Below are positions 41,954 to 64,000 of a stretch of 64,000 nt of DNA, piece after piece. The position numbers were made by a program, and so were the translations under genes. This DNA comes from Sphingobium sp. (lineage in GTDB: Bacteria > Pseudomonadota > Alphaproteobacteria > Sphingomonadales > Sphingomonadaceae): assembly GCA_017744605.1 (NCBI GenBank), contig JAGIAZ010000004.1, forward strand, positions 1 through 64,000, in the 5' to 3' direction. The notes under the pieces were generated by a model that saw nothing but the letters and a program-made list of their open reading frames with translations, did no database searches and was not told the DNA's origin. Positions within the stretch are counted from its first letter, which is position 1; every line of letters begins with the position of its first letter.

Positions 41954-41990
41954 CGCTGCAACATGGGTTCCGTGCTGCGGTGCTTCAACA

Positions 41991-42458: not shown

Positions 42459-42585
42459 ATGCGACAAACATGTGCAAATTTCATCATATGCGCAATAGAC
42501 GCGTAAAATTGCTGCGGGTGACCGCGAAGATCGCGCGGATATTGCGGGCTGATCATGCTATTCTTCGCGCACAGGAGAGCTGCCC
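42459..42585. promoter_or_regulatory. Divergent lrp/hppD control region
   Basis: AT-rich for this genome. It contains TGTGCAAATTTCATCA, a TG-N3-AAATT-N-CA type partial palindrome as seen in Lrp/AsnC sites, and two TATGCG repeats (CATATGCGACA and CATATGCGCAA). GGAGAG before 42586 is the hppD ribosome site. The operator call is inferred from position and motif shape. Confidence 0.4.
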
Positions 42586-47408: not shown

Positions 47409-47421
47409 GCGAGTCTCCTGT

Positions 47422-48750: not shown

Positions 48751-49599
48751 TCAGCGCACGTCGTTCACGAGGCGTCCAAGCCCGTCGATCTCGACAGTCA
48801 CGCGGTCGCCCGGACGCAGGAAGCGCGGCGGATCGAAGCCAAGGCCGACACCGGCCGGCGTGCCGGTCGCGATGATGTCGCCCGGCTGCAACGTGATGCC
48901 GGCGGAGAGTGTCTCGATGAGGATCGGGATATCGAAAATGAGATCGGCGGTGTTGGCATCCTGCCGCAACTCGTCATTGACCCAGCAGCGTATGCCGAGG
49001 TTCGCCACGTCAACCTCATCCGCTGTCACCAGCCACGGGCCCATCGGGCAGAAGCTGTCGAGCGATTTGCCGATCAGCCATTGTTTGTGCAGCGACTGAA
49101 GGTCGCGCGCCGTGACGTCGTTGACGATCGTATAGCCGAACACATGGTCATAGGCGTCGCTGCGGTCGATGCCGCGACCACCGACGCCGATCACGACGGC
49201 CAGCTCCGCCTCATAATCGATCTTGTCGCTGAGACCGCGCGGATAGAGGATCGGCTCTCCGGACGCGATGACGCTCTGCGGCACCTTGGTAAAGATGATC
49301 GGGGCTTCGGGAATCGTCTCCGCCTCGCTCTTCGCGGAACTGTCGAAGCCGCTGCGCGTGAACTCCTGCGCATGGGCGCGGTAATTCTTGCCGACGCAGA
49401 AGATGTTGCGCGCAGGAAGCGGGATGGGCGCGAGGATCGCCACCGAGGACAGAGGGAGGCCGCGGCTGGTCGGCTCAGGCATCTGCCCAAGCATGATCAG
49501 CGTCGTCATGTCGATGCCTAGCGGAAAGGCCAGCCCGGCCTCTTCGTCGATCATGGCGGCCTCGGTCGCCAAGCCATGTTTGATGGTCGCCAGTTTCAA
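48751..49599 (-). CDS. FAH-family hydrolase, probable fumarylpyruvate hydrolase
   Basis: A 282-residue FAA-hydrolase domain protein. The catalytic core has IFCVGKNYRAHAQEF, KVPQSVIASGEPI, IDYEAELAVVIG (acidic metal ligands), GYTIVNDVTARDLQ, KSLDSFCPMGPWLV and IATGTPAGVGLG. The length and the gentisate context point to fumarylpyruvate hydrolase (fumarate plus pyruvate), but related acylpyruvases look alike. It is the promoter-proximal gene of the three-gene gentisate cluster. Confidence 0.85.
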   Translation of the reverse strand: MKLATIKHGLATEAAMIDEEAGLAFPLGIDMTTLIMLGQMPEPTSRGLPLSSVAILAPIPLPARNIFCVGKNYRAHAQEFTRSGFDSSAKSEAETIPEAPIIFTKVPQSVIASGEPILYPRGLSDKIDYEAELAVVIGVGGRGIDRSDAYDHVFGYTIVNDVTARDLQSLHKQWLIGKSLDSFCPMGPWLVTADEVDVANLGIRCWVNDELRQDANTADLIFDIPILIETLSAGITLQPGDIIATGTPAGVGLGFDPPRFLRPGDRVTVEIDGLGRLVNDVR

Positions 49600-49722: not shown

Positions 49723-49769
49723 TGTCACCTTTGACAAGTAGGGTGACACCCTTCTCCCCAATGGTGACA
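49723..49769 (+). promoter_or_regulatory. Putative enhancer (UAS) upstream of the PQQ-propeller/DUF1080 operon
   Basis: TGTCACC (49723-49729) and GGTGACA (49742-49748) form a perfect inverted pair, and a further GGTGACA lies at 49763-49769. They are 58 to 104 bases upstream of the sigma54 promoter at 49827, the usual place for enhancer-binding proteins. Related TGTYAC/GTRACA pairs stand before the other two sigma54 promoters of this region. Confidence 0.55.
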
Positions 49770-49826
49770 GTGTCGGCCCCTCGGAGATGCTCCGTGCTTC
49801 ATCGGGAACTGCGGCTCAACGAGGTC

Positions 49827-49842
49827 TGGCACGGTTCATGCA
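49827..49842 (+). promoter_or_regulatory. Sigma54 promoter of the PQQ-propeller/DUF1080 operon
   Basis: TGGCACGGTTCATGCA carries the invariant GG (-24) and GC (-12) with correct 10-base spacing, against the consensus TGGCACG-N4-TTGCA. The expected transcription start is near 49854, giving a leader of about 215 bases that holds a small reading frame at 49890. The rest of the 469-base gap from 49600 shows nothing else. Confidence 0.7.
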
Positions 49843-49889
49843 CCTGAGCCATCGGGAACCCGCGGCAAGCGGGTCTAGGAGGGGACGCC

Positions 49890-49991
49890 ATGTCTCATGC
49901 GCCAAAGATCAAGGCCGTTGCAGCCTGCCGGACATGTTGCGTCTCGTCCGCTTACAATCGAAGAGACAAGCAGTTGAGCCAGCGACGGTGA
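49890..49991 (+). CDS. Putative 33-residue leader peptide with a CRTCC motif
   Basis: ATG 49890 has an excellent ribosome site AGGAGGGG 6 bases upstream. The frame reads MSHAPKIKAVAACRTCC and ends after an Arg-rich tail. It is the first start codon with a strong ribosome site after the sigma54 promoter and lies 77 bases before the propeller gene. Nothing in it marks a signal peptide or a membrane span. It could be a translated leader, a small metal-binding peptide, or chance. No homologue is recognised. Confidence 0.35.
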   Translation: MSHAPKIKAVAACRTCCVSSAYNRRDKQLSQRR

Positions 49992-50068
49992 GCCGCGCGG
50001 CGTCGGGCCGACGCTGCACACCCACACGAACAGATGGCTACAGAAAAGAACGACATGAGGGGAAGCCA

Positions 50069-51892
50069 ATGATCCGCAAAACCAGCACCGCCTTTCTGAC
50101 TGCGGCGATCCTCGCCTTCCCCGCGACGTCGGGCATGGCGCAGAAGGTCGCTGCACCGGCAGCCGCTCCGGCTGTCGACAAGGTCATGGCGCACAACGAT
50201 CGTGGGCGATCCGGCTGGAACGACAAGGAAACCGTGCTCAATCCCGCCAATGTCGCCGGCGGCAGCTTCGGGCCGCTTTGGGCCTCGCCGCAGTTCGACA
50301 GCTTCAATGCCACGCCGCCGCGCCTCTTCTCCGCGCCGCTCTACCTGCATGCCGTCAAGATGACCGCCGGGCCGGCCAGGGGTCAGACGCTGGGCGTGAC
50401 CTATGTGAGCACGACCGCGGGCTATGCCTATGCCGTGGCGACCAGGGGCGGCAAAGGCATCGCGCCGGGCACCATCCTCTGGAAGACGCGCCTCACCGAG
50501 GCACCCTGCAACAAGGGCCAGATGGGCAATTACGGCACGGGCATTCTCGATCCCAAGACCAATCGCTTCTACGTCACGAGCTGCGGCAACACGAAGAATA
50601 CCGATTCGAGCGGCAACATGTGGAACGCCCATGCGCTCGACCTCGGAACCGGCCAGCAACTCGCTGGCTGGCCGGTTGCGCTCAGCCAGACGATGATCGA
50701 CAATCCGGCGCTCAACCGCAACGGCAAGCGCACCTGGCGCATGGCCGAAAATCTGCGCTACGTGCAACGCGGCGCGCTCAACCTGAGCGCCGACGGACAG
50801 CGTCTTTACCTCGCCTTCGGCGCCGACAGCGTGGGCTGGATGCTGGTGCTCGACACGGTCCAGAAAAAGGTCGTCTCAGCCTTCTCCGCGACGCCCGACG
50901 ACGAGCAGAACGGCGGCGGCATGTGGGCTCAGGGCGGCCCTGCCGTCGACGAGCAGGGACGGCTCTACGTCTCAACCGGCTCCAACCTCAACGACGGTAT
51001 CGCCATGGGCTATACCAGCATGCACCCCGACCAGCCGAACAGCTGGGCGCACTCTATCCTGCAATTCCAGGACGACCGTACCAATGGCCTGATCCTGACC
51101 GGGACCTATACGCCCTATAATTACTGCCAATCCGGCAAGGCCGATATCGACATCGGCTCGAGCCCCGTCATCGTCGTCGACCTTCCGGCCGGGAGCTCGG
51201 CGACGACGCGCCTGTTGAGCCTGGGCGGCGGCAAGCAGGGCAACATCTACCTGCTCGACCGCGACCGCATGCCAGGCGGCGCCTATAAGCGCCACGGCTG
51301 CCAGCTCGATCCTGCCGAGGATCTGTCGCTGCTCGCGCCGGAAGTGCAGCCTGAATGGAAGCGGCGCGGCCCGATCAATCTGTTCAAGCCCTTTTCCGAC
51401 GAGTTCGGCGCCTATGACCAGGCCAAGAGCCGCACCTCCGCGTCCTATTATCGCGACGATGCCGGCAAGACCTGGATCTACGTGAACGGCGCCAGCAAGA
51501 AGGGCGAGAGCTTCAACACGTCGATGCCGCCGGGCCTCGCCAAGGTCGCCGTGATCGCGAGCCCGGGCGCGGATGCCTTCCTGCGCGTCGACAAGCTCGA
51601 GATGACGAAGACCTTTCACAATCCGGGCTCGCCCGTGATCAGCAGCAATGCCGGCCGCGACGCGATCATCTGGATGATCGACCAGAATGCACCGCGCACG
51701 GTCAACCTGTTCGGCACCAAGCCGCCGCAGCCCTTGCTCTATGCCTTCGATGCCGCGACCCTGAAGCCGATCTACCAAAGCGAGGTGGGCCAGCTCTTCC
51801 CGACGGGCAATTATGGCGAACCCAGCGTCGTCGAGGGCATGGTGCTGATCGGCACCGACCGGCTCCAGGCTTTCGGCCTCAAGGCCAAGTGA
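50069..51892 (+). CDS. Secreted PQQ-type beta-propeller protein
   Basis: A 607-residue exported protein. The signal peptide is MIRKTSTAFLTAAILAFPATSGMAQ. The mature N-terminus HNDRGRSGWNDKETVLNPANVAGGSFGPLW is typical of large PQQ-like/quinoprotein-type propellers. Blades carry WKTRLTEAP, LYLAFGADSVGWMLVLD, GRLYVSTGSNLNDG and IDIGSSPVIVVDLP. Cysteines at CNKGQ, TSCGN, YNYCQ and HGCQL could form disulfides; no CXXCH heme motif exists. Oxidoreductase activity is possible but the PQQ ligands were not identified, so a binding or scaffold role is also open. It is translationally coupled to the first DUF1080 gene. Confidence 0.85.
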   Translation: MIRKTSTAFLTAAILAFPATSGMAQKVAAPAAAPAVDKVMAHNDRGRSGWNDKETVLNPANVAGGSFGPLWASPQFDSFNATPPRLFSAPLYLHAVKMTAGPARGQTLGVTYVSTTAGYAYAVATRGGKGIAPGTILWKTRLTEAPCNKGQMGNYGTGILDPKTNRFYVTSCGNTKNTDSSGNMWNAHALDLGTGQQLAGWPVALSQTMIDNPALNRNGKRTWRMAENLRYVQRGALNLSADGQRLYLAFGADSVGWMLVLDTVQKKVVSAFSATPDDEQNGGGMWAQGGPAVDEQGRLYVSTGSNLNDGIAMGYTSMHPDQPNSWAHSILQFQDDRTNGLILTGTYTPYNYCQSGKADIDIGSSPVIVVDLPAGSSATTRLLSLGGGKQGNIYLLDRDRMPGGAYKRHGCQLDPAEDLSLLAPEVQPEWKRRGPINLFKPFSDEFGAYDQAKSRTSASYYRDDAGKTWIYVNGASKKGESFNTSMPPGLAKVAVIASPGADAFLRVDKLEMTKTFHNPGSPVISSNAGRDAIIWMIDQNAPRTVNLFGTKPPQPLLYAFDAATLKPIYQSEVGQLFPTGNYGEPSVVEGMVLIGTDRLQAFGLKAK

Positions 51893-52743
51893 CCGAACCG
51901 GCGTCTATCCGGGCCGCACCGCTCGTGCGCAGGCCATTGCCGATCCTGCTCGGGATCGCGGCGTTCGCCTGCGCGACGGCGGCGGGCGGCGCGCCTTGGG
52001 CGCACAGCAAGGGCTTTACGCCCCTGTTCGACGGCAAGACGCTGAAGGGCTGGAAAGGCGACATGACGCTCTGGAGCGTCAAGGACGGGGCGATCACGGG
52101 CGGTTTCGACGCGCCGCGCAAGGACATGACCTTCCTCGTCCACGACGGCAGCTATTCGAACTTCGAGCTGCATTTCAAATATCGCTTCGCCAGCAAGGAC
52201 GGCAATAGTGGCGTCCAATACCGCAGCAAGCCGCGCCCGGACGTCAATCCCTATATGGTCGAGGGCTACCAGGCCAATGTCGTCCCGCCCGACCAGCTGG
52301 TGCGCTACGGCATGCTCTACGAAAATCTCGGCCGCAACGAGATCGGGCTGCTCAGCGAGGATGTCGAGATCGGCCGCGACAGCGGTGGCAAGCTCACGCG
52401 CAAGATCAAGGGCTCGGTCAATCCGGTCGGCACCCTGCTCGCCGACTATCGACCTTATCCGCAGTGGAACGACTATGTGGTCATTGCCTATGGCAACCGC
52501 CTCATCCACGCGATCAACGGCAAGCTGGCGCTGATCGCGACGGACAACGATCCGGCACGCCTGAAAAGCGGCCAGTTCGCCCTTCAGCTCGACCCCTTTC
52601 TGGCGCTCCGCGTCGAATTCAAGGATATCGAGGTCAAGCGCCTCACCGCAGAACCTTCAATTGCAGGACGGTTCGTGACGAAGGCCGGTCCCCCGGAGAC
52701 CACGTCCGAAATCCCGAAGCGCCCGGCAAAGCCGCCGCAATGA
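51889..52743 (+). CDS. DUF1080 (3-keto-disaccharide hydrolase family) protein A
   Basis: A 284-residue exported or membrane-anchored protein. A GTG start overlaps the propeller stop (GTGA). A hydrophobic segment (PLPILLGIAAFACATAAGG) follows a short positively charged N-terminus. The concanavalin-like DUF1080 domain has FTPLFDGKTLKGWKGDMTLWSVKDGAI, FELHFKYRFASKDGNSGVQYRSK, GYQANVV and the C-terminal strand VEFKDIEVKRL. It lacks the Gln/Met-rich QEMALLGQKA loop of paralogues B-D. Some members of this family hydrolyse 3-keto-glycosides; the activity here is inferred. Confidence 0.88.
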   Translation: MTEPASIRAAPLVRRPLPILLGIAAFACATAAGGAPWAHSKGFTPLFDGKTLKGWKGDMTLWSVKDGAITGGFDAPRKDMTFLVHDGSYSNFELHFKYRFASKDGNSGVQYRSKPRPDVNPYMVEGYQANVVPPDQLVRYGMLYENLGRNEIGLLSEDVEIGRDSGGKLTRKIKGSVNPVGTLLADYRPYPQWNDYVVIAYGNRLIHAINGKLALIATDNDPARLKSGQFALQLDPFLALRVEFKDIEVKRLTAEPSIAGRFVTKAGPPETTSEIPKRPAKPPQ

Positions 52744-52857
52744 CCATGCTCTCCCGGACTTTGCGGCCCATGCCGGCCGTCGCCGCCGTGCTACGCGGCG
52801 GCGGCCAACCTTGCCCGCCCGACCCTTTTTCCACTCATCTGGAAGGATTGAACTGAA

Positions 52858-53733
52858 ATGATCCGCAGCATTTCCCGGGCCGGCGCGTCCGCACTCGCTC
52901 TCGGCGGCCTCGCCTTTGCCGTCATTCCGCCGGCCGCGGCGCAGACCGACAAGGCGCCGGCCGGCTTCGTCTCGCTGTTCGACGGCAAGACACTCAAGGG
53001 CTGGCGTGGAGACATGACCGTATGGTCGGTCAAGGACGGCGCGATCCAGGGCGGCTCGCCCACGCCAATCCCGCACAACACGTTCCTCGTCGGCGAGAAG
53101 AACTACGCGAATTTCGAGCTGCGCTTCAAATATCGCTGGCTGACGCCCGAGGGCAATTCGGGCATGCAGTTCCGCAGCGCCCAGACCGAAGGGCCATATG
53201 CCATGACCGGCTACCAGGCCAATGTGGTGCCCACCAATGCGCCGCCCGAACGCTTCGGGATGCTCTACAACGAGCTTGGCGACCGCCAGGAAATGGCGCT
53301 GCTGGGCCAGAAGGCGACGATCACCCGCCGCCCTGCCGGCGCGGGCGGTCGCGGCCGCGTCGTGCGCACCGTCAGCGAGATGGTGAATTCGCGCGAAGCG
53401 ATCATCGGCTCGATCAAGCCGGCGCCCGAATGGACGGAAGTCGTCGTGATCGCTTACGGCAATCACATCGTCGCTGCGATCAACGGCCTGCTCGCCTTCG
53501 ACGCGATCGACAACGATCCCGTGCGGATGAAGGATGGCGTGTTCGGCATCCAGGCCCATTCCGGCCCCGCGATGATCGTCCAGTACAAGGACATCTACGT
53601 GAAGCCCCTGACTGCGGCGCCGAATCTTGCCGGGCGCTTCCGCACCAATCCGACGCCGGCGCCCGAACCGCGCCAGACCTTCAAAGATTCAACCAAAGCG
53701 GCGATGCCCGACGAGGCACTGCCGAAAGAATAA
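52858..53733 (+). CDS. DUF1080 (3-keto-disaccharide hydrolase family) protein B
   Basis: A 291-residue secreted protein with a signal peptide ending AAAQ. The domain motifs are FVSLFDGKTLKGWRGDMTVWSVKDGAIQGG, FELRFKYRWLTPEGNSGMQFRSAQ, GYQANVVPTN, FGMLYNELGDRQEMALLGQKATITRR and VQYKDIYVKPL. It is closest to paralogue D by the shared QEM-LLGQKA and VRTVSEMVNSREAI blocks. It lies 114 bases after paralogue A; the gap has a GC-rich hairpin (GCCGCC / GGCGGC) that may tune expression between the genes. Confidence 0.9.
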   Translation: MIRSISRAGASALALGGLAFAVIPPAAAQTDKAPAGFVSLFDGKTLKGWRGDMTVWSVKDGAIQGGSPTPIPHNTFLVGEKNYANFELRFKYRWLTPEGNSGMQFRSAQTEGPYAMTGYQANVVPTNAPPERFGMLYNELGDRQEMALLGQKATITRRPAGAGGRGRVVRTVSEMVNSREAIIGSIKPAPEWTEVVVIAYGNHIVAAINGLLAFDAIDNDPVRMKDGVFGIQAHSGPAMIVQYKDIYVKPLTAAPNLAGRFRTNPTPAPEPRQTFKDSTKAAMPDEALPKE

Positions 53734-53743
53734 GGAGGGTGAA

Positions 53744-54643
53744 ATGAGGACCTTGATCGGCGCCACCTTGGCGGGATCGGCCATGCTCGCCGGTCTCGCC
53801 GCCATGGCCACATCCGCGCAGACATCCGGGCGAGCCGCCACGCAGGCACCGGTGCCCGCGGGCTTCACATCGCTGTTCGACGGCAAGACACTGAATGGTT
53901 GGCGCGGCGACACGAAGGTGTGGTCGGTCAAGGACGGCACCATCCAATCGGACTCCGGCGAAGGCCTCAAGTACAACACCTTCCTCATCCTCAACAAACC
54001 CTACCCCAATTTCGAGCTTCGCCTGAAATACCGCTTCGTCACGAGGGTCGGCAATTCGGGCCTGCAGTTCCGCAGTGGGCAAGTTGAGGGCAATCATGTG
54101 CTTGCGGGCATGCAATCGAACATCACGCCAGCCAATTTCACTGCGTGCGGCCTGCCCTCCTGCGGTGAAGAGCGCTTCGGCATGCTGTACGAGGAGCTCA
54201 ATCGGCTCGAACTGGCCATGCTCGGCGAGCGTGTGGAGATCACGCGGCGCCAGGCGACGACCGGCGGCCAGGGCGCGATCGTGCGTACGCTACTCGGCAC
54301 GACCAACCCGCGCGAGGCCATCATTGCCACGGTGAAGCAATATCCCGAATGGAACGAGGACGTGGTGATCGTTCACGGTAACCGCATCGTCCATGCCCTC
54401 AACGGCTATCTGGTCTTCGATGCGACCGACAACGACCCGCTCGGCGCGAAGAACGGCCTGCTCGGGCTACAGGCGCATGCCGGCCCGCCGAGCGTCGCGC
54501 AGTTCAAGGACATCGTGATCAAGCCACTGACCGCCATGCCCAACATCACCGGGCGCTTCATCACCAAGCCCACGACCGTGACGCCTGTGCGCACCCAGCT
54601 CAACATCAAGATGGAAAAAGCGGAAGCGCCCAAGGCGCCCTGA
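53744..54643 (+). CDS. DUF1080 (3-keto-disaccharide hydrolase family) protein C
   Basis: A 299-residue secreted protein with an ideal ribosome site AAGGAGGGTGAA before the ATG. After the signal peptide come FTSLFDGKTLNGWRGDTKVWSVKDGTIQ, FELRLKYRFVTRVGNSGLQFRSGQVEGN and VAQFKDIVIKPLTAMPNITGRFITKP. It has an insert with two cysteines (CGLPSCGEERFGMLYEEL) not found in the other three. The last 25 residues of the domain are nearly identical to paralogue D. It is the last gene of the operon, followed by a strong terminator. Confidence 0.9.
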   Translation: MRTLIGATLAGSAMLAGLAAMATSAQTSGRAATQAPVPAGFTSLFDGKTLNGWRGDTKVWSVKDGTIQSDSGEGLKYNTFLILNKPYPNFELRLKYRFVTRVGNSGLQFRSGQVEGNHVLAGMQSNITPANFTACGLPSCGEERFGMLYEELNRLELAMLGERVEITRRQATTGGQGAIVRTLLGTTNPREAIIATVKQYPEWNEDVVIVHGNRIVHALNGYLVFDATDNDPLGAKNGLLGLQAHAGPPSVAQFKDIVIKPLTAMPNITGRFITKPTTVTPVRTQLNIKMEKAEAPKAP

Positions 54644-54693
54644 CCGCGCCTTGCCGGGGGCGTTTCCCGACGTTCACTTCCAGCAAAACAAGC

Positions 54694-54737
54694 GAGCCCA
54701 GGCACCGGGAGGAGTTGGTGCCTGGGCTCTAGTTTTT
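54694..54737 (+). terminator. Rho-independent terminator of the propeller/DUF1080 operon
   Basis: Arms GAGCCCAGGCACC (54694-54706) and GGTGCCTGGGCTC (54717-54729) form a perfect 13-bp stem with a 10-base loop, followed by TAGTTTTT. It ends the plus-strand operon 50 bases after paralogue C and separates it from the convergent paralogue D. Confidence 0.93.
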
Positions 54738-54786
54738 CGCGCCCACAGGAGAGGAAGGCGCAAAAGGGCTTCGATGCCGAGCCCTC

Positions 54787-55668
54787 TTATTCGAGCGGCT
54801 TGTCGGCGATGTTGACCTGCGTCGAATCCTTGTAGGTCTTGCGCGGCTCCGGTGCCGGCGATGGCTTGGTAATGAAGCGCCCGGTGATGTTGGGCATGGC
54901 GGTCAGCGGCTTGATCACGATGTCCTTGAACTGCACCGTCGAGGGCGGCCCCTTGTGGAACTGCCAGCCGAGCAGGCCCGAGCGGATGCTGAGCGGATCA
55001 TTGTCGGTCGCATCGAAGGCGAGATAGCCGTTCACCGCGTGCCACATGCGATTGCCGTAGACGATCAGCACATCCTCGTTCCACTCGCCGGTCGGCTTGA
55101 TGTGATCGAGGATCTCGTCGCGCGAATTGATGGTCTCGCTGACCGTCCGCACGATGCGCCCCTGGCCGCCGCCGGCCGCCTGGGCCCGCGTGATCTCGGC
55201 CTTCTGGCCAAGCAGCACCATTTCCTGGCGCTCGCCAATTTCCTCATAGAGCATCGCAAAGCGCTCCGGGGACTTGCGGTTGATGGGCGTCACATTGGCC
55301 TGGAGCCCGCCAAGGATATAGTTGCCCGCAACCTGGCCGCTGCGGAACTGCAGGCCCGAATTGCCGGCGTCCGTCAGGAAGCGATATTTGAACCGGATCT
55401 CGAAATTGGCGTAAGGCTTGTCGTAGATCAGATAGGTGTTGAGCGGGATCGGCTCCGCGGAATGTCCCTGGATCGCGCCATCCTGGACCGACCAGATCGT
55501 AGGATCGCCTTTCCAGCCCTTCAGCGTCTTGCCATCGAATATCGAAGTGAAACCTGGCGGCACAGGCGACTGCGCATGGCCTTGCGCGGCGAGCGGCACG
55601 AGCATGCATGCCGCGAGAGCGGCAAATCCCGTTGATTTCAGAAACGTCCTGCTACGTGCAGCGATCAT
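54787..55668 (-). CDS. DUF1080 (3-keto-disaccharide hydrolase family) protein D
   Basis: A 293-residue secreted protein. ATG 55668 is preferred because GGAGGG is then 6 bases away; ATG 55674 would be too close. After the signal peptide (to about GHAQ) come FTSIFDGKTLKGWKGDPTIWSVQDGAIQGH, FEIRFKYRFLTDAGNSGLQFRSGQVAGN, GLQANVTP, ERQEMVLLGQKAEITRAQ and VQFKDIVIKPLTAMPNITGRFITKP. It is a single-gene unit convergent with the other three and has its own sigma54 promoter and upstream palindromes. Confidence 0.9.
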   Translation of the reverse strand: MIAARSRTFLKSTGFAALAACMLVPLAAQGHAQSPVPPGFTSIFDGKTLKGWKGDPTIWSVQDGAIQGHSAEPIPLNTYLIYDKPYANFEIRFKYRFLTDAGNSGLQFRSGQVAGNYILGGLQANVTPINRKSPERFAMLYEEIGERQEMVLLGQKAEITRAQAAGGGQGRIVRTVSETINSRDEILDHIKPTGEWNEDVLIVYGNRMWHAVNGYLAFDATDNDPLSIRSGLLGWQFHKGPPSTVQFKDIVIKPLTAMPNITGRFITKPSPAPEPRKTYKDSTQVNIADKPLE

Positions 55669-55798
55669 GGCCATCCCTCCTTGCCCCTTGTGGCCGGACT
55701 GTCGGGATGGCAGCCACGCGCGCTAACCTGTGCGGCCTGGCCGGCTCGACCCGCATGTCCCGTCGTCGTTACCCGCAGCGCGGGCTCCCGGGCACCGT

Positions 55799-55814
55799 AG
55801 CATGGAGTGTGCCA
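55799..55814 (-). promoter_or_regulatory. Sigma54 promoter of DUF1080 gene D
   Basis: Read on the minus strand this is TGGCACACTCCATGCT, with the -24 GG and -12 GC at the right spacing. The expected start lies near 55788, giving a leader of about 120 bases. The surrounding gap (55675-55978) otherwise holds only the upstream palindromes and a hairpin. Confidence 0.7.
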
Positions 55815-55879
55815 ACTCTCGCGAACGCGCTTTCATGCACGGATCGCGCATTCCACACGTCCAACCGGCCGCAATTCGT

Positions 55880-55916
55880 TGTCACCCCTGTTTCGTTTGA
55901 AACAAGAGAGGTAACA
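55880..55916 (-). promoter_or_regulatory. Putative enhancer (UAS) upstream of DUF1080 gene D
   Basis: Outer arms TGTCACC (55880-55886) and GGTAACA (55910-55916) enclose inner arms TGTTTC (55889-55894) and GAAACA (55899-55904). The nested palindrome is centred about 90 bases upstream of the sigma54 promoter. The outer arms match those at 49723-49748 and near 57780-57820. Confidence 0.55.
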
Positions 55917-55922
55917 GAAGGA

Positions 55923-55942
55923 AACAGGCGTCCTCGCCTGTT
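55923..55942 (-). terminator. Hairpin after the sigma54 activator gene
   Basis: AACAGGCG and CGCCTGTT form a perfect 8-bp stem with a 4-base loop. On the minus strand it follows the activator stop by 36 bases. The T run after it is short (TTTCC), so termination is plausible but not strong. Confidence 0.5.
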
Positions 55943-55978
55943 CGAAATTATATGATTTTTTCAGCGCATTACGGATGA

Positions 55979-57757
55979 TCAAGCCAGTTCCGTAGCATCA
56001 CTGCCGGTCAAGGCGGCTTCGAGCTTGGCGTACAGCGTCTTACGGCTGATCCGCAGCGCCGCAGCCGCGACGCTCTTATTGCCACCCGCCTGTTCGATCG
56101 CGCGATGGATGTCATCGATCGTGACGCGGCGCGAGGCGGCATGACCGGACGGAAGCGGCTTGCTGCCGCCGTCGGGCTGGAAATAGGTGCCGCGAAGGAC
56201 CGGGCCATCCTCCAGGATCGCTGAGCGCGCCAGGACCTGGCGCAGCTCGCGAATATTGCCCGGCCAGCTATGCCGCGCGAGTTCTTCCTCGAAACGCTGG
56301 GACATAGCGAGATTCTGGAGCCCCATCTCGGCCGCGATCTGGCGCAGGAAATGCCCGGTCAGGACCGGCAGGTCGGCAATGCGCTCGCGGAGCGGCGGAA
56401 TGGTCAACGTGACCGTACTGAGGCGATAATAGAGGTCCGACCGGAATTTGCCCTCCTGCACCAGTTCGGCAAGCGAGCGGTTGGTCGCCGCGATGACGCG
56501 CACATTGACCGGTATCGGATTGTCCGCGCCGACACGAACGATCTCGCGCTGCTGCAACACACGCAGCAATGCCACCTGTGCCGCCGGGCTGAGGTCAGCG
56601 ATTTCATCGAGCAGCAGCGTGCCGCGATTGGCCAGCTCGAACTTGCCGATCCGCCGCCGATCGGCGCCAGTGAAGGCACCGCGCTCGTGGCCGAACAGCT
56701 CACTCTCCAGAAGACCGGACGGAATAGCCCCGCAATTCAATGTGATAAGAGGCTGCTCGGAGCGCGGGCTCAACGAATGGATGAGACTCGCGGCGACTTC
56801 CTTGCCAACGCCCGTTTCGCCTTCGATCACGACATTCGCATCATATGGCGCGACACGCTTCACCGTCCGCATGAGATCCTGATAGGCGGCCGACCGGCCC
56901 AGCATCTCCCATTTGGCGGGCTCGTCGACTTCGGAATCGACGAGCCGCAACGTCTTGCATCGCCGCACGAAATTCGACGTGATCGCCTGCACGGGGAGGC
57001 GCTCGAACACCGAGCCGCCGGCAATGCCGTCGACCCTGAGCTGGCGGAACAAGGTCGTGAAATCCTCGACGTCCGTGAAGGGGCCACCGTAAATCAGACA
57101 GAGCGGCCGGTGCGCCGCGCCTTCCACGACAGCGAGCATTCGCTTGATGTGCGTGATCGAATCCTGCAGCCGGTCGCGGCGATCACCGACCGCGAACTGC
57201 AGCGGCGTAAGGCCGGCATTGATGATATAGGCGTCAACCCCCGCTGGCGCAAAACGGCGCATGTCGCTCTCGTTGAGGACGAAAGCAAAGGTCGCCATAC
57301 CCATTTTGTGGGCCTTGGCGAGCAACTCGATTTCCGTTTCGATGCCAACCCCCGCTTCCTCGAAGGCTTCGCGGATCTTGCCGTCGATAAAGCCGACGGT
57401 CGGCCAGTTGGTCACGCCATGCACGCCCATACGCTGGAGCTGAAGGAGGCGTGTTTCAATCTCGATGCCCGGATCGCTGCCCATCACACCGGCAATCACC
57501 GGCAGCTTGCCTGCATTAGGCAGGATGTGGCGGCGCAGCAGTTCTTCGGTCTGTTCGTTGGCATTGCCATAGGCCAGCAATGAGGCCAGCGAACCATGAC
57601 CGAGGCTTCGATAAAGCCCTGCATTCAAAGCTAAAAGCAGGTCGGCACCGGCTTCCACGACATATTCGGCAATCTGGCCCGATCCTGCCGATACCGCGAG
57701 CACCGGAGACCCGGTCTGCTTGGTGCCCCGCACAAGCTCCCGCACGATGTTGTGCAT
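55979..57757 (-). CDS. Sigma54 enhancer-binding activator with TIM-barrel (PEP hydrolase-like) sensor domain
   Basis: A 592-residue three-domain regulator. ATG 57757 has GGAGAGG 8 bases upstream. Residues 1 to about 270 are a TIM-barrel domain of the phosphoenolpyruvate hydrolase-like (PF09370) type, with [34 protein letters not shown] and GGSVFERLPVQAI. Residues 285-515 are the AAA+ domain: Walker A GETGVGKE (313-320), GAFTGA (360-365) and Walker B LLLDE (381-385). A Fis-type HTH (VAAAALRISRKTLYAKL) ends the protein. The barrel is a paralogue of the protein encoded at 59194. An intact GAFTGA loop means it can contact sigma54. It probably controls the three sigma54 promoters nearby. Confidence 0.93.
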   Translation of the reverse strand: MHNIVRELVRGTKQTGSPVLAVSAGSGQIAEYVVEAGADLLLALNAGLYRSLGHGSLASLLAYGNANEQTEELLRRHILPNAGKLPVIAGVMGSDPGIEIETRLLQLQRMGVHGVTNWPTVGFIDGKIREAFEEAGVGIETEIELLAKAHKMGMATFAFVLNESDMRRFAPAGVDAYIINAGLTPLQFAVGDRRDRLQDSITHIKRMLAVVEGAAHRPLCLIYGGPFTDVEDFTTLFRQLRVDGIAGGSVFERLPVQAITSNFVRRCKTLRLVDSEVDEPAKWEMLGRSAAYQDLMRTVKRVAPYDANVVIEGETGVGKEVAASLIHSLSPRSEQPLITLNCGAIPSGLLESELFGHERGAFTGADRRRIGKFELANRGTLLLDEIADLSPAAQVALLRVLQQREIVRVGADNPIPVNVRVIAATNRSLAELVQEGKFRSDLYYRLSTVTLTIPPLRERIADLPVLTGHFLRQIAAEMGLQNLAMSQRFEEELARHSWPGNIRELRQVLARSAILEDGPVLRGTYFQPDGGSKPLPSGHAASRRVTIDDIHRAIEQAGGNKSVAAAALRISRKTLYAKLEAALTGSDATELA

Positions 57758-57778
57758 GCCTGTACCTCTCCATCCTGC

Positions 57779-57827
57779 TTTTGTTACTTTCGGCTCGAAA
57801 CATCTCACAAGGTAACAAAAGTGACAA
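57779..57827 (+). promoter_or_regulatory. Putative enhancer (UAS) between the activator and the Tm-1-like operon
   Basis: TTTTGTTAC (57779-57787) and GTAACAAAA (57812-57820) are perfect inverted arms, with GAAACA (57797-57802) between them and GTGACA just after. This lies 22 bases before the activator start and 55 to 103 bases before the sigma54 promoter of the divergent operon. It could serve both activation of the operon and autoregulation. Confidence 0.55.
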
Positions 57828-57881
57828 CCCCATCCGGGCCAACGCGGGGCTCACGGCCCCGAATGGCTGAAATTCTGGACT

Positions 57882-57897
57882 TGGCACGATCCCTGCT
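57882..57897 (+). promoter_or_regulatory. Sigma54 promoter of the Tm-1-like operon
   Basis: TGGCACGATCCCTGCT fits TGGCACG-N4-TTGCW with one mismatch and keeps the GG/GC pair. The start would be near 57909, about 35 bases before the GTG start of the first gene. Confidence 0.72.
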
Positions 57898-57943
57898 TCA
57901 CTGAGGTCGGCCCGCGATGACGGGTATCTGGAGGGGGTAGGCT

Positions 57944-59164
57944 GTGAGCACATTGGCGCCGGTTTATGTTTTCGCCACGCTCGATACGAAGTTCGACGAA
58001 GCGAACTTCCTTGCCGAAGCCATTCGCGGCGAGGGCGTTTCGGCCGTGCTCGTGGATGTCGGCACCCTCAATCCCGCAGCCGGCGAAGCCGGCGTCGACC
58101 GTGCGGCCGTCGCGGCATTCCATCCCGACGGTGCAGGCGCCGTTCTCGGCAATACCGATCGCGGCACCGCCGTCATCGCGATGAGCAAGGCTCTGCGCGG
58201 TTTCATGATCGACGCGCAGCGCTCGGGCAAGATGTCCGGCGCGGTCGGCCTGGGCGGCACGGGCGGCACCTCGATGATCGCCAATGCGATGCGCGGTCTG
58301 CCCATCGGCTTTCCCAAGCTCATGGTCTCGACCGTCGCGAGCGGCGACACCAGCAGCTATATCGGCACGAGCGACATCACGATGATGTTCTCCGTGGTGG
58401 ACGTCGCCGGCCTCAATCGCGTCTCGCGGCAGGTCTACCGCAATGCGGGCGGCGCCATCGCCGGCATGGCGCGGATGAAGCCCGCCGCCGACGAGAGCAA
58501 GCCCGCCCTCGGTCTCACCATGTTCGGCGTCACCACGCCATGCGTCACCCAGGTCCGCGAAATCCTCGAGCCCGAGGGCTATGACACGCTCGTCTTCCAT
58601 GCGACCGGCGTCGGCGGACGGGCGATGGAAGAACTCGCGGCCAGCGACATGCTCGATGGCGTCCTCGACATCACCACGACCGAGGTCGCGGACGAAGTGG
58701 TCGGCGGCGTCTTTGCCGGCGGCCCTGCCCGTCTCGACATCATGCTCGAGAAGCGCCTGCCTTATGTGCTGTCGCTCGGCGCGCTCGACATGGTCAATTT
58801 TGGCGCCATGGAGACAGTCCCGGAGAAATTCCGCGGCCGCAATCTCTACGTCCATAATGCCGCCGTCACGCTCATGCGGACGACGGTGGAAGAAAATATC
58901 GAGTTCGCCCGCTGGATCGCGCGCAAGCTCAACGCGCATCCCGAAGCGAGCTTCACGCTGCTGATTCCGGAAGGCGGTGTCTCGGCGATCGATGCGCCCG
59001 GCAAGCCCTTCCACGATCCGGAAGCGGACGCCGCCCTTTTCTCGGAACTCGAGCGTGCGGTCGACCAAGGTCCGACGCGCCGCATCGTCCGTTACCCCTT
59101 TCACATCAATGACCCGGCTTTTGCCCAGGCAATCGTCGCGGAATATCGCGCGGTGGCGCGCTGA
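57944..59164 (+). CDS. UPF0261 (Tm-1-like ATP-binding) family protein
   Basis: A 406-residue cytoplasmic protein, GTG start with GGAGGGGG upstream. The family opening is [96 protein letters not shown] and [38 protein letters not shown] are core blocks. The C-terminus has [25 protein letters not shown]. Tomato Tm-1 is a fusion of this family with the TIM-barrel family encoded next, so the two proteins very likely work together. The reaction is not known to me. Confidence 0.93.
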
Positions 59165-59193
59165 CCATGTCTCACCCTTTGCCCGGAGGCCGT

Positions 59194-60033
59194 ATGCGCT
59201 GGAAACGTCAGGAAATTCTCGACCGGTTTCACAAGAAGATCGCTGCAGGAATGCCGATCGTCGGAAGCGGTGCGGGGACTGGCATTTCCGCGAAATGTGC
59301 CGAACAAGGCGGCGCGGACCTTCTGATCATCTATAATTCGGGACGTTTCCGCATGGCCGGACGCGGATCACTCTGTGGCTTGCTCGCCTACGGCAACGCC
59401 AATGAGATCGTCGTCGACATGGGCAAGGAAATCCTGTCGATCGTGGAGAACACGCCGGTTCTCGCCGGCGTCAACGGCACCGATCCGTTCCTGCTGACCG
59501 ACCGCTTCCTGCGCGAACTCATCGAAATGGGCTTCGCCGGCGTCCAGAACTTCCCGACTGTCGGCCTGATCGACGGCTCCTTCCGGCTCAACCTGGAAGA
59601 GACCGGCATGAGCTTCAGCAAGGAAGTCGACATGATCGCCGCTGCTCACGAAGTCGGCCTGCTGACCACGCCTTATGTCTTCGACACCGAGCAGGCCAAG
59701 CATATGACCCATGCCGGCGCGGACATCGTGGTCGCGCATATGGGCCTCACGACCGGTGGCCAGATCGGCGCCAAGACGGCGATGAACCTGGACCAGGCGG
59801 CCATGCATGTGAACGAGATCATCGCCGCTGCCCGCGGCGAACGCCCGGACGTGATCGTGCTCTGCCATGGCGGCCCGATTTCCTCGCCCGAAGATGTCGA
59901 GGTGATGCTGCGGAAATGCCCGGATGTGGACGGCTTCTTCGGTGCGACATCGATGGAGCGTTTGCCTGCCGAGATCGCGATCACGGAACAGGTCCGCAAG
60001 TTCGCCAGCCTGCCGTTGAGGAAGAAATCATGA
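59194..60033 (+). CDS. TIM-barrel protein, phosphoenolpyruvate hydrolase-like family
   Basis: A 279-residue protein. ATG 59194 is preferred because CGGAGG is 5 bases upstream; an in-frame ATG at 59167 adds 9 residues. It is a PF09370-type TIM barrel with [78 protein letters not shown] and [12 protein letters not shown]. The same blocks occur in the sensor domain of the divergent activator. It matches the C-terminal half of plant Tm-1. It follows the UPF0261 gene closely and overlaps the ThuA-cupin gene by 4 bp. Confidence 0.9.
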
Positions 60034-61268
60034 GGCAGACCCGTTCGCTCCTGACCCGCGCCCTGATCGCGGCAAGCCTTCTCGCCATGGCTGCGCCGCT
60101 CGTGGCGCAGCCGACGATCGTGCTGATCGGCGGCAAGAAGCAAGGCATGAACAAGGGCGAGCATGATTTCCCCGACGGCATTCTGAAGCTCGAGCGTATC
60201 ATCAAAGCCTCGCCCGATTTCGCGAAGCTCAAGCCCATCGTGAAGAGCTATCCGGTCGGCTTCCCGCGCAATCTGTCCGAGATCGACGACGCAACCGTCG
60301 TCGTCATGTATTTCGGGCCTGTCGCCGGCGCCGATGGCAAGAGCGCGAGTCCCGTCCAGGATCCCGCCGTCGCGGCCGAGCTCGACAAGCTTGCCAAGCG
60401 CGGCGTGGGCTTCGTTGCGTTGCACCAGGCCTTCACGATGCCGAGCGATGCCACAGGCCCCTCGCCTTTCATGGCGCTGCTCGGCGCCACGCGTCCGTCC
60501 GGAAGCGATTATTCGATCGAAGCGGCGCCCGTTTCGGTGACCGAAACGACGAAGCTGGTGACGCGCGGTGTCGAACAGTTCGACTATCTCGACGAATATT
60601 ATTCTGGCATCACCTTCGGCAATGTGAACCCCGTCCTGGGCGCACGTTCCCATGTCCAGTTCAAGGCTGGCAAAGGCGCCTATGAAGAGCCGTCGCGCAA
60701 CCGGACCATCGCCTGGACATTCAACCGTCCCGACGGCGGCCGCTCCTTCAGCTTCACCGGCGGTCATTATCTGACGACGCTCGATCAGCCGCAGGCGCGG
60801 ACTGTCCTGCTCAATGCGATCCTGTGGGCTGCCAAGGAAGATGTGCCCCAGGCCGGGGCGCAGTCGGCTCTTCCGACCGCGTCGCGCATGGGCATGGCGC
60901 CGCCACCCGAGCCACAGCTCGTCGTCTATCCGGCCGAGAATGTGAAGGTCGAAGCCCAGCCCTGGGGCAAGCTCGAATGGTTCGCACACCGCTCGATCGG
61001 CAACTCGAGCAACGTCACGATCGGTCAGGCGACGTTCAACCCCGGCAAGGGCAACGCGGCTCACTGGCACCCGAATTGCGACGAGGTGCTGCACGTCCTC
61101 AAGGGGCGCGTCGTCAACAAGATTGGCGACAAGGAATATGAAATGAAAGCCGGCGACACAATGACCATTCCGGAGGGCGTCATGCACAGCACGCGCAACA
61201 TCGGTACGGACGAGGCCATTGTCGCCATTTCCTACAATTCGGCCGATCGCATCGCGATAGGAGAGTGA
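60030..61268 (+). CDS. Secreted ThuA-like/cupin fusion protein
   Basis: A 412-residue exported protein; the ATG overlaps the previous stop. Signal peptide [27 protein letters not shown]. Residues about 30-275 are a ThuA-like class I amidotransferase-type fold ([71 protein letters not shown]). Residues about 305-405 are a cupin with [49 protein letters not shown], where H, H, E and H can bind a metal. ThuA proteins are tied to 3-keto-disaccharide metabolism in rhizobia, which agrees with the DUF1080 neighbours. Confidence 0.9.
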
Positions 61269-61270
61269 CG

Positions 61271-61366
61271 ATGGGCCTCGCATTTTTTCGTTTCGGGATC
61301 GTCCGTTCGGGCCGGGCCCGCATGCGAGGGGTGGAAGCAGGAATGAGGCGCCTGAAGCCCGGTTAA
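61271..61366 (+). other. Possible 31-codon frame and intergenic region before the TonB receptor
   Basis: An ATG at 61271 with GGAGAG upstream opens a 31-codon Arg/Gly-rich frame ending at 61366. The ribosome site is inside the end of the previous gene and the peptide has no recognisable feature, so it is probably chance. An inverted repeat AGGCGCC/GGCGCCT overlaps its end and may be a weak transcript end for the Tm-1-like operon. Confidence 0.2.
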
Positions 61367-61413
61367 GCGGCGCCTGCATGTGATTTTGGGTTGAGAAACG
61401 ACTGATTTCCCAG

Positions 61414-61434
61414 AGCGAAAACATGTTTTTCGCT
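61414..61434 (+). promoter_or_regulatory. Palindromic operator candidate before the TonB receptor
   Basis: Arms AGCGAAAA and TTTTCGCT flank the centre CATGT, giving a 21-base near-perfect palindrome 57 bases before the receptor start. Its shape (GCGAAAAC...GTTTTTCGC) resembles LacI/GntR-type operators. No matching site was found in the other operons of the region, so the receptor may have an extra regulator. Confidence 0.45.
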
Positions 61435-61491
61435 TCGGCGGAGCTGTGCCCACGCAGATCCGGAAGAAACAAAATAGATAGGGGATGAGAA

Positions 61492-64000
61492 ATGCAGAAA
61501 ATCTCTCGGAAGGACTATTTGAGTTCCGCAGCCGCACTGGCGATGATCCTGGCATGGTCCTGCCCCGCGCAAGCGCAGAACCGGCCAGCGCCCGCCCAAT
61601 CCGGTGATAGCGCGAACGCCGAAGACTCGGGAGCCAACGATCAGAACACGATCGTCGTCACCGGCACCAGCATCAAGGGCGCTCCCGCTGTCGGCTCGAA
61701 CCTGATCAGCGTCGGCCGAGACGCGATCGAGGACAATGCCGTGCAGACCGTGCAGCAGCTCCTCAAGACGGTCCCGGCGATCTGGGGCGGCAATGCCGCC
61801 GGCCAGGGCGGCTTCGCGGCGAATGACTCCGCCGGCGCCTCGGTCCCGCAAATCCACGGCCTCGGCGGCTCGAACAGCTCCTCCACGCTGGTCGTGATCG
61901 ACGGCCACCGCTTCCCGCTGACCGGCATCATCCGCAACCTGCCGGACCCGAACTTCATCCCGCCCAACGCCATCGAGCGCGTCGAAGTGCTCGCCGAGGG
62001 CGCATCGTCGATCTACGGTTCGGACGCGGTCGCGGGTGTGCTCAACTTCATCACGCGCCGCAAGTTCGAAGGCGTCGAAGCCAATGCCCAATATGGCTTT
62101 GGCGACAAATATTCGACCTGGACGGCAAGCCTGGCGCTCGGCACGCGCTGGCAGGATGGTGGCGCCGCCCTCTTCTATACCTTTTCCGATCGCGGAAACC
62201 TGCTCGGTTCCGATCGTCCGCGCACGCTATCCGATCAGCGGAGCCAGGGCGGCAGCAATTTCGGCAATTTCAACTGCTCGCCGGCCAGCATCCAGCCACA
62301 GGGGGACTCGCAGATCTATCTGTATCCTTATCCTGCGGCGGGCGCCGGTGTCGCAAACACCCAGGCCAATGCGCCTTGCGAACAGTCTAAATATACCGAC
62401 CTGATTCCGCAGGAGCGCCGGCACTCGATCATGGTCAAGATCGACCAGAAGGTTGGCGACAAGCTTACGCTCAATGGAGACATCGTCTTCTCGAACCGCG
62501 TCAACGTGCAGCGCAACTCCGTGACGATCGCTTCCAGCACCGGCGCCACACCGTCCGGTCAGACGATCACTGCAACGGCTTTCGGCCCTCTCAGCGGCAA
62601 GGGCGGGCAGATCAACCCCTTCTATACCAACCCGTCGGGATCGACTGCGGGCCAGCAGACAATCCGCTTCGATGCCAACGACCTCTTCCCGGATGGGGCT
62701 CGCGCCACCGGCCTTAGCGAGACGTTCTACGGCTATCTCAACGCCAACTACGACTTCACTGACAAGTGGAGCGCGACGGCCTTCGTGATGGCGGGCGTCA
62801 ATACCGCCAAGACCACGATCACGGGCTCGATTTGCCAGAGCTGCCTGTTGCTCGCCCTCAATGGCACGACCAACGCAAACGGCAATCTGACGCAGCCGTC
62901 CATTCCCAACACCAACGTCCTCGTGACCAATGTGCCGCTCACCACGGCCAACGCGATCGACGTCTGGAACCCGCGTGCGACGAACCGGACATCCCCGGCT
63001 GTCCTCGCCCAGCTGATGGACAGCGCGAATTACCAGGGCGCGCGCCAGGTCATTCAGCAATATAATCTGAAGGTCACCGGCTCGCTCTTCGCACTGCCGG
63101 CCGGGGATCTCAAAGTCGCGCTCGGTGGCGACATAACCAAATATCAGGTCGACACCGAAGTGGTCGAGCCGAACAACACCGGCCCGTCCAGCACCGGCTC
63201 GGGCTACAACCGCTTCCGCTACCTGCGCGACGTCAAGTCGCTCTACGCGGAAGCATTGATCCCGATCGTCTCGCCCGAGATGGGCGTCGGGTTTGCCCGC
63301 CGGATCGATCTCAGCATTTCCGGACGCTACGATCACTATAGCGACTTCGGAGACATCACGAATCCGAAGTTCGGCCTGACCTGGGAGGTCACCGACGGCG
63401 TCAAGCTGCGCGGCAACTACGCCACCTCGTTCGTGGCGCCGCAATTCTCGACCTACGGCCCTGACGTCTTGAGCGGTATCAACGGCCGCAGCGTCGACAC
63501 CTTCTTCGGTCCCCAGAACGGCACCCTCAACGTGCCGCTCGACAAATATCCCGAAGCGCGAACCATCCCGGGTTGCAACACGCCGGGCCAGGTCACCTGC
63601 ATCCTCGGTACGGCCAGCATCGCCGGTATGCGTCTCGACGGCGCCAACCCCGACGTGAAGCCAGCCCAAGGCAAGACCTGGCAGTTCGGCATCGACCTCA
63701 ACCCGCGCTTCATACCGGGGCTGAGCGCCAGCTTCACCTACTGGCACACGACCCTGGAGGGCACGAGCGGCTCGCCACCGCTGACCATCGTGATCAACTC
63801 GGACGCCTTCCACAACCTGCTGAAAATCTATCCAAACGGCGCCACTGCCGCGGAGATCGAGGCCTATCGCGGCGGCCGCCGCCAGCGCTCGCCGCTGTCC
63901 TCCGGTCCGATCTACTTCGGCCTCGATTTCCGTAACTACAATGTCTACACCGTCTATGTCGAAGGCATCGACTTCGATGTCCACTACCGCCACAAGTTTG
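61492..64000 (+). CDS. TonB-dependent receptor (3' end outside window)
   Basis: At least 836 residues without a stop before the window ends. A signal peptide ends near CPAQAQ. NTIVVTGTSIKG is the TonB-box-like segment. The plug has VQQLLKTVPAIWGGNAAGQGG, IHGLGGSNSSSTLVVIDGHRFP and IERVEVLAEGASSIYGSDAVAGVLNFITRRKFEG, a pattern common in large sphingomonad receptors for complex carbohydrates or plant compounds. It follows the ThuA-cupin gene in the same direction after 223 bases and is the likely uptake gate for the substrate of the system. Confidence 0.9.
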   Translation, partial: MQKISRKDYLSSAAALAMILAWSCPAQAQNRPAPAQSGDSANAEDSGANDQNTIVVTGTSIKGAPAVGSNLISVGRDAIEDNAVQTVQQLLKTVPAIWGGNAAGQGGFAANDSAGASVPQIHGLGGSNSSSTLVVIDGHRFPLTGIIRNLPDPNFIPPNAIERVEVLAEGASSIYGSDAVAGVLNFITRRKFEGVEANAQYGFGDKYSTWTASLALGTRWQDGGAALFYTFSDRGNLLGSDRPRTLSDQRSQGGSNFGNFNCSPASIQPQGDSQIYLYPYPAAGAGVANTQANAPCEQSKYTDLIPQERRHSIMVKIDQKVGDKLTLNGDIVFSNRVNVQRNSVTIASSTGATPSGQTITATAFGPLSGKGGQINPFYTNPSGSTAGQQTIRFDANDLFPDGARATGLSETFYGYLNANYDFTDKWSATAFVMAGVNTAKTTITGSICQSCLLLALNGTTNANGNLTQPSIPNTNVLVTNVPLTTANAIDVWNPRATNRTSPAVLAQLMDSANYQGARQVIQQYNLKVTGSLFALPAGDLKVALGGDITKYQVDTEVVEPNNTGPSSTGSGYNRFRYLRDVKSLYAEALIPIVSPEMGVGFARRIDLSISGRYDHYSDFGDITNPKFGLTWEVTDGVKLRGNYATSFVAPQFSTYGPDVLSGINGRSVDTFFGPQNGTLNVPLDKYPEARTIPGCNTPGQVTCILGTASIAGMRLDGANPDVKPAQGKTWQFGIDLNPRFIPGLSASFTYWHTTLEGTSGSPPLTIVINSDAFHNLLKIYPNGATAAEIEAYRGGRRQRSPLSSGPIYFGLDFRNYNVYTVYVEGIDFDVHYRHKF

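Follow-up and report, generated by a model that had tools for sequence, protein, structure and literature searches.

The DNA analyzed here (the window) is a 64,000-nucleotide stretch of Sphingobium sp., contig C44 of a Sphingomonadaceae draft genome (3.37 Mb, 80.8% complete, 5.3% contamination). From position 46299 to the window's end it holds a gene cluster that we read, at a probability of roughly one half, as a predicted four-operon sigma54 regulon for the catabolism of a glycoside, probably a phenolic one. A sequence-only reading of the same DNA had proposed a coordinated glycoside pathway, and a single sigma54 regulon, a local activator, loci that recur elsewhere and the fold of the DUF1080 proteins all speak for this proposal, but it left out a fourth operon, for ring cleavage. 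Its gene-family calls were borne out by Pfam: four PF06439 proteins, a PF09370-AAA-HTH_8 regulator, PF06792 with PF23189, a separate PF09370 protein, ThuA with cupin, and a TonB plug with barrel.

Sigma54 promoters and upstream repeats

Four sigma54 promoters were found in the cluster. These are TGGCATGGTCCATGCT (49669-49654, minus strand) for the operon of FAH-family hydrolase, MFS symporter, and bicupin; TGGCACGGTTCATGCA (49827..49842, plus) for the propeller-DUF1080 operon; TGGCACACTCCATGCT (55814-55799, minus) for the DUF1080 gene K4; and TGGCACGATCCCTGCT (57882..57897, plus) for the UPF0261 operon. The three promoters claimed earlier (49827+, 55814-55799(-), and 57882+) are thus present, but the one at 49669-49654(-) had been missed. 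Each matches the strict form TGGCAYN6TGCW, which was defined after the sites had been seen, and each has TGTYAC/GTRACA half-sites at a distance of 59-104 bp on its upstream side. Counted from the -24 box, the outermost half-site falls at -100 to -104 and the innermost at -59 to -71. The divergent propeller and FAH promoters read their half-sites (-104/-84/-63 and -100/-79/-59, respectively) from one set of putative activator-site repeats lying between them, TGTCACC...GGTGACA...GGTGACA (49723..49769). Putative repeats of the K4 promoter lie at 55880..55916 (half-sites -102 and -71), and those before UPF0261 at 57782..57826 (-100, -70, and -61), also just upstream of the likely start of the activator gene.

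The strict form has four matches in the window, compared with a mean of 0.58 and a maximum of 3 in 200 Markov-1 sequences. The composite of strict site and upstream half-sites, present at all four strict sites of the window, occurred in none of the 200. The loose sigma54 consensus, allowing two mismatches, gave 83 window matches against 71.8 expected, a count reached by 5 of 100 shuffles and not clearly above chance; the case therefore rests on the strict site together with the repeats.

It could be argued that there is no common regulon, the repeats and sites being products of chance or targets of another regulator. The barely enriched loose consensus fits this explanation, and so does an order-wide scan that weighs against our reading, as it returned at least one composite match in 80 of 396 genomes, about a fifth. 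The backwards control of that scan also matched in about 43 genomes (hand count), and a single composite is therefore no evidence. The grouping of composites argues the other way. The four of the window span ≤8.2 kb, none was found in 771 kb of the other loci compared, and in the order scan closely spaced composites are limited to genomes G000 and G318; in the eight others with two or three, these lie on different contigs or >90 kb apart. Similar half-site sets precede seven promoters in three related loci (L017, L018, and L043), giving 11 promoters in four genomes. Whole-genome scans confined composites to the cluster in all four, which are the genomes known to carry this activator (promoters: G000, 4, from 5 pattern matches; G804, 4; G805, 1; G318, 2), with none in the backwards control. 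The composite element alone is not specific; the clustering of composites is. We regard an origin by chance or through another regulator as very improbable, and the four operons as very probably one activator regulon.

The related loci also resolve the promoters individually. Sphingomonas colocasiae (L017) has four such promoters, before FAH (the counterpart of TGGCATGGTCCATGCT, at 19689+), propeller, a second propeller-K4 pair, and UPF0261; a fragment of a metagenome-assembled genome (L018) has one, and L043 has two looser ones (half-sites at -58 and at -80/-68). In an alignment to L017 without gaps, conservation peaks over half-sites and core at three of the promoters; for K4, the core is all that agrees in register. 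The repeats at 57782..57826 are 73% identical to L017 versus 28% and 41% on either flank.

Downstream of the UPF0261 operon lies a TonB-dependent receptor gene (61492..64000, plus, cut by the window end), with Pfam TonB plug and barrel. It is 80% identical in L017, and L043 carries a different TonB receptor. The window scan placed no repeat-bearing strict sigma54 site ahead of it, and no sigma70 promoter or terminator was found between it and the ThuA-cupin gene. The receptor's claimed place in the system stands as that of a conserved neighbor, but its linkage is by position only. The only exact textbook site in the window, TGGCACN5TTGC at 61065+ (61065-61079), falls within the ThuA-cupin gene, where it covers the codons for the HWHPNC metal motif, 413 bp before the receptor gene. 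No TGTYAC/GTRACA occurs in the 125 bases before it, and it was set aside as a promoter: we take it for coding sequence of the metal motif without repeats.

The activator, the UPF0261-TIM pair, and cluster conservation

The single sigma54 activator gene that had been claimed in mid-cluster was confirmed by its domains and intact motifs. It (55979..57757, minus) encodes a PF09370 TIM-barrel sensor (247.8 bits), an AAA+ domain with GAFTGA (Sigma54_activat, PF00158; 229.2 bits), and a Fis-type helix-turn-helix (HTH_8; 30.7 bits). The open frame begins at 57808, and relatives begin at a position matching the ATG at 57757 (MHN...), which is probably the start and would leave the repeats upstream of the activator gene. 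Numbered from 57808, Walker A (GETGVGK) is at 330, GAFTGA at 377, and LLLDE at 398. AAA+ domain, Walker motif, GAFTGA, helix-turn-helix, and repeats at four of four promoters are the sequence features of a sigma54 enhancer-binding protein, whose binding to these repeats is predicted. Sigma54 itself is encoded in the genome, with one rpoN match to PF04552 (225.3 bits, contig C10).

GAFTGA is kept in the L017 and L018 activators and reads GSFTGA in L043. Neither loop is present in any of 10 other PF09370 fusion regulators (L064, L066, and L115-L122, the last eight chosen from a larger match list by score and frame length), all of which also lie beside a UPF0261-TIM pair. From these sequences, a PF09370-barrel regulator beside UPF0261-TIM looks like a wider habit, and sigma54 control looks particular to the present group. 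In the L117 regulator, Pfam sees no AAA domain at E ≤ 1e-5. Short PF09370-like proteins (166-231 amino acids) accompany GAFTGA-less regulators at L064:4228-4857, L066:12767-13267, and L121:6153-6848.

In an alignment of the four sensor barrels and 10 stand-alone PF09370 proteins, the NxG, YGNAN, D106, and N128 positions were kept, and R60, H191, and H234 were replaced by Leu, Asn, and Tyr, respectively, in the sensors. We read the sensor barrel as a paralog of the TIM enzyme that has probably lost its catalytic activity and become a sensor.

That presumed enzyme, a stand-alone PF09370 TIM-barrel protein (59167..60033; 418.8 bits), is encoded between a UPF0261 protein of the Tm-1 N-terminal type (57944..59164; PF06792 201.5 and PF23189 304.7 bits) and a secreted ThuA-cupin fusion (60030..61268; ThuA, PF06283, 61.4 bits, cut-off 33.4; Cupin_2, 55.4 bits). 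The first two are cytosolic; secretion was called here and below from hydrophobic N-termini, by reading the sequence alone. All three genes are on the plus strand and nearly gapless, with UPF0261 and TIM 2 bases apart and ThuA-cupin overlapping TIM by 4 bases. Solved relatives are 3wry (Tm-1) and 9mpy for UPF0261 and 2p10 for TIM. UPF0261 and PF09370 are two genes here, not the Tm-1 fusion; the "split Tm-1" of the sequence-only reading is nothing special, separate genes being the usual bacterial state according to the available part of PMC5028733.

Six plasmid UPF0261-TIM neighborhoods were compared. Three hold sugar ABC transporter, Gfo/Idh, and cupin genes (L065, L066, and L068), L067 holds sugar ABC and cupin genes, and L064 and L069 hold neither; the cupin of Kim5 (L068) is a 36% relative of the cupin part of ThuA-cupin. 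By analogy, these neighborhoods point to a tie between UPF0261-TIM and oxidized sugars. In L121, and by resemblance in L117 and L122, the pair is lined up with ABC transporter genes, flotillin, SRPBCC proteins, and an FAH hydrolase. L046 has a sigma54-type AAA protein near the pair. Propeller, ThuA-cupin, and activator fusion are all absent from the wider neighborhoods of L045-L050, 6 of the 10 other order genomes with UPF0261-TIM.

The gene set as a whole occurs in three loci, namely, the window, L017, and L043. L017 is 63-86% identical to the window and has an extra propeller. L043 carries, on one strand, TonB receptor, propeller, one DUF1080 gene, ThuA-cupin, TIM, UPF0261, and activator. 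Of the 396 order genomes, 12 have PF09370 above its cut-off and 2 have the activator fusion, which is also present in two named genomes beyond these; among 60 near relatives, none had PF09370 over the cut-off. Linkage of these families across Sphingomonadales, which the sequence-only reading had put forward as a check, is real, but the cluster is rare and patchy. Cluster genes have a GC content of 0.61-0.66, versus 0.65 in the first 42 kb, and a recent foreign origin judged from GC was rejected for lack of contrast.

Predicted glycoside oxidation and cleavage, and predicted ring opening

The genome's four PF06439 matches are all in this cluster, encoding the secreted DUF1080 proteins K1 (51889..52743, plus; 117.2 bits), K2 (52858..53733, plus; 121.7 bits), K3 (53744..54643, plus; 116.5 bits), and K4 (54787..55674, minus; 106.7 bits), against a cut-off of 26.8. 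An AlphaFold2 model of K4 (pLDDT, the model's per-residue confidence, 80.8) matches 9fbe, 8rr2, and 8tda, so that the modeled DUF1080 fold is like that of solved 3-keto-glycoside eliminase/hydratases. K2 had no match at E ≤ 1e-5 on plasmids. In another Sphingomonadales genome, a DUF1080-like stretch of about 30% identity (L047:16436-17083) lies about 5 kb from the UPF0261-TIM pair.

Upstream of K1 is the gene for a secreted propeller-like protein (50069..51892, plus), a candidate pyrroloquinoline quinone (PQQ)-type periplasmic dehydrogenase by its relatives and motifs. The earlier description of a secreted PQQ-type propeller rests on those and on a hydrophobic N-terminus; no Pfam family matches the protein at E ≤ 0.01. 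Among seven propeller relatives scanned, the PQQ repeat family exceeds its cut-off only in L124 (PF13360, 32.0 bits, cut-off 27.6). D359/D361...K389 are invariant in nine relatives and align with the DxD...K of an annotated PQQ glucose dehydrogenase in a weak match (E 0.0027, probability 11%). A nine-sequence profile found no credible relative in PDB (one match, E 0.96), the annotated PQQ glucose dehydrogenase as query gave no PDB match at E ≤ 1e-50, and a structure model from three sequences had a pLDDT of 39, too low for use. The propeller was found in 4 of 398 genomes of a phylum sample, its own included, and in no viral contig searched. The second propeller paralog of S. colocasiae (L017:11997-13823; 54%) is under its own sigma54 site and precedes a K4-type DUF1080 gene.

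In L055 (8597-11512, minus, genome G699), one frame joins ThuA, propeller, and cytochrome c domains; its neighbors resemble, by eye, a sugar ABC ATPase and a glucokinase. Because of this fusion, the propeller is a candidate oxidase, and the glycoside therefore need not arrive already oxidized. The glycoside of the sequence-only reading is thus kept, but its prior oxidation is no longer required. PF13618, the LacABC-type glycoside 3-dehydrogenase subunit, is absent from the cluster; it occurs elsewhere in three of four genomes, with no match in S. colocasiae.

We think it rather likely that the secreted proteins oxidize and cleave a glycoside. The cluster could instead be an ordinary sugar or sugar-acid locus whose core is uptake through TonB, secreted proteins that process sugar, and UPF0261-TIM, with DUF1080 proteins for binding or hydrolysis, a structural or lactonase-like propeller, and no oxidation-elimination. 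The best characterized fold matches are 3-keto-glycoside eliminase/hydratases, however, the fusion of ThuA, propeller, and cytochrome c suggests redox chemistry, and this reading does not account for an operon that carries matching promoter elements; we consider an ordinary sugar locus improbable.

That operon, which the sequence-only reading lacked, runs from 49599 to 46299 on the minus strand under the same promoter type and repeats. It encodes an FAH-family hydrolase resembling fumaryl-/maleylpyruvate hydrolases (48751..49599, TTG start; solved relatives include maleylpyruvate hydrolase 6jvv), a shikimate-transporter-like MFS metabolite/H+ symporter (47422..48732; TIGR00883 385.9 bits, under the cut-off of 443.45), and, as its last gene, a predicted ring-cleaving bicupin of the gentisate 1,2-dioxygenase family (46299..47438). 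The bicupin's best solved relatives are the gentisate 1,2-dioxygenases 3bu7 and 2d40, and it may work like them. Its TIGR02272 score, 246.5 bits, does not reach the equivalog cut-off of 442.1, and because it lies under this curated gentisate cut-off, its substrate may be a substituted gentisate or a different hydroxybenzoate. In S. colocasiae JCM 31229, an isolate that carries the whole cluster (L017 and L062), FAH and MFS are neighbors in L017, and bicupin copies 77% and 74% identical lie beside FAH-MFS in L062, directly after them, and in L063. The latter, on another contig of the same metagenome-assembled genome as L018, holds a partial FAH, the bicupin, and an MFS that tblastn matched in two pieces.

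The bicupin adjoins genes at 41072-46227 for a biopterin-dependent hydroxylase, 4-hydroxyphenylpyruvate dioxygenase, a glyoxalase-like protein, fumarylacetoacetase, and maleylacetoacetate isomerase. These Phe/Tyr genes were rejected as regulon members, having no strict sigma54 site with repeats. In L062, the 16 kb after the bicupin hold no counterpart of the glyoxalase, fumarylacetoacetase, or isomerase (hydroxylase and 4-hydroxyphenylpyruvate dioxygenase were outside the query set).

The ring might also not be the glycoside's own aglycone. Gentisate pathways are common on their own, and the activator might co-regulate unrelated glycoside and gentisate loci whose compounds co-occur, for example on plant surfaces. 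L043, with the glycoside set and two composites but no FAH-MFS-bicupin operon, would fit such an arrangement. In two diverged loci, however, the ring-cleavage and propeller operons share one repeat set divergently, and FAH homologs (49-63%) lie about 4 kb from UPF0261-TIM in three of eight other alphaproteobacterial loci (L117, L121, and L122). We hold co-regulation of unrelated loci to be unlikely, and put the ring being the aglycone at somewhat less than even odds. Plants store gentisic acid as 5-O-glucosides and xylosides, according to the available part of PMC9706870, and a gentisate-type aglycone is plausible given the ring-cleavage operon.

Under the four-operon reading, the TonB receptor would import the glycoside into the periplasm, where the propeller would oxidize the sugar, probably by PQQ-type chemistry with a cytochrome as acceptor. 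The DUF1080 proteins, in eliminase and hydratase roles, and ThuA-cupin would cleave the keto-glycoside and process the keto-sugar. The MFS symporter would import the released gentisate-type acid, the bicupin would open its ring, and the FAH hydrolase would split the product, while UPF0261 and the TIM protein would convert the sugar-derived acid in the cytosol. Binding of the TIM enzyme's substrate or product to the activator's PF09370 barrel would turn on all four operons.

In a more specific and doubtful version, LacABC would be replaced by the propeller as a soluble, PQQ-type periplasmic glycoside dehydrogenase of a new kind, yielding keto-glycosides of plant phenolics (e.g., the 5-O-glucoside or -xyloside of gentisic acid, which are products of salicylate breakdown). 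DUF1080 proteins and ThuA-cupin would cleave these, the aglycone would be ring-cleaved inside, and the sigma54 activator would sense through its dead PF09370 copy. If true, this would give a first function to UPF0261 and PF09370, bacterial relatives of plant Tm-1. Under the broader reading, these poorly understood parts of a tomato resistance protein are now tied to a defined predicted regulon with testable chemistry, the oxidation-elimination route of glycoside breakdown gains a candidate oxidase and a link to gentisate-type ring cleavage, and the exact promoters and repeats make the regulon directly testable.

Relation to known systems

Among the listed titles and abstract openings of the open-access literature, none describes this gene combination (subscription journals lay outside coverage); parts of it resemble known systems. 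PF09370 heads activators of this kind (Pfam text). Regulators of PF09370-AAA-HTH type in Azospirillum, Qingshengfaniella, and other Alphaproteobacteria (L064, L066, and L115-L122) lie next to UPF0261-TIM, as here, and share the domain order, by Pfam in L064, L066, and L116 and by alignment in six others, with L117 lacking AAA. They are 26-31% identical, and with a GAFTGA-like loop in 0 of 10 they are probably not sigma54 activators.

Gentisate ring-cleavage operons have the bicupin dioxygenase, FAH hydrolase, and MFS transporter in common with ours, whereas here the bicupin falls under the curated gentisate cut-off and the sigma54 promoter shares its repeats with a divergent glycoside operon. 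The available part of PMC5028733 describes UPF0261 and PF09370 (TBST) genes as pairs, as here, and plant Tm-1 as their fusion. In our cluster, the two genes stay apart in the bacterial manner, are preceded by a sigma54 promoter, and lie beside secreted glycoside proteins.

For the cleavage step, the Bacteroides/Alistipes 3-keto-glycoside eliminase/hydratases (8rr2, 9fbe, 8tda, and 8v31) have PF06439 and the modeled fold in common with the DUF1080 proteins, but identity is 20-29%, varying with the aligner, the genetic setting is different, and activity here is predicted. The Agrobacterium 3-keto-phlorizin beta-eliminase AtOGE likewise belongs to a two-step oxidation-elimination of plant phenolic glucosides, according to the available part of PMC10628242. 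Its route differs in using a Mn2+-dependent eliminase, and DUF1080 has no occurrence in the main text of that source. Another counterpart is the Caulobacter system, as given in the available part of PMC9007349, where a periplasmic role has been proposed for DUF1080 once lactose is oxidized at C3, as we propose here for a glycoside, LacABC is also important on salicin, and more than one DUF1080 gene lies nearby, as here. In Caulobacter the oxidase is LacABC, whereas in the present system the PF13618 subunit is missing from the cluster, the regulator is different, and ring cleavage is added.

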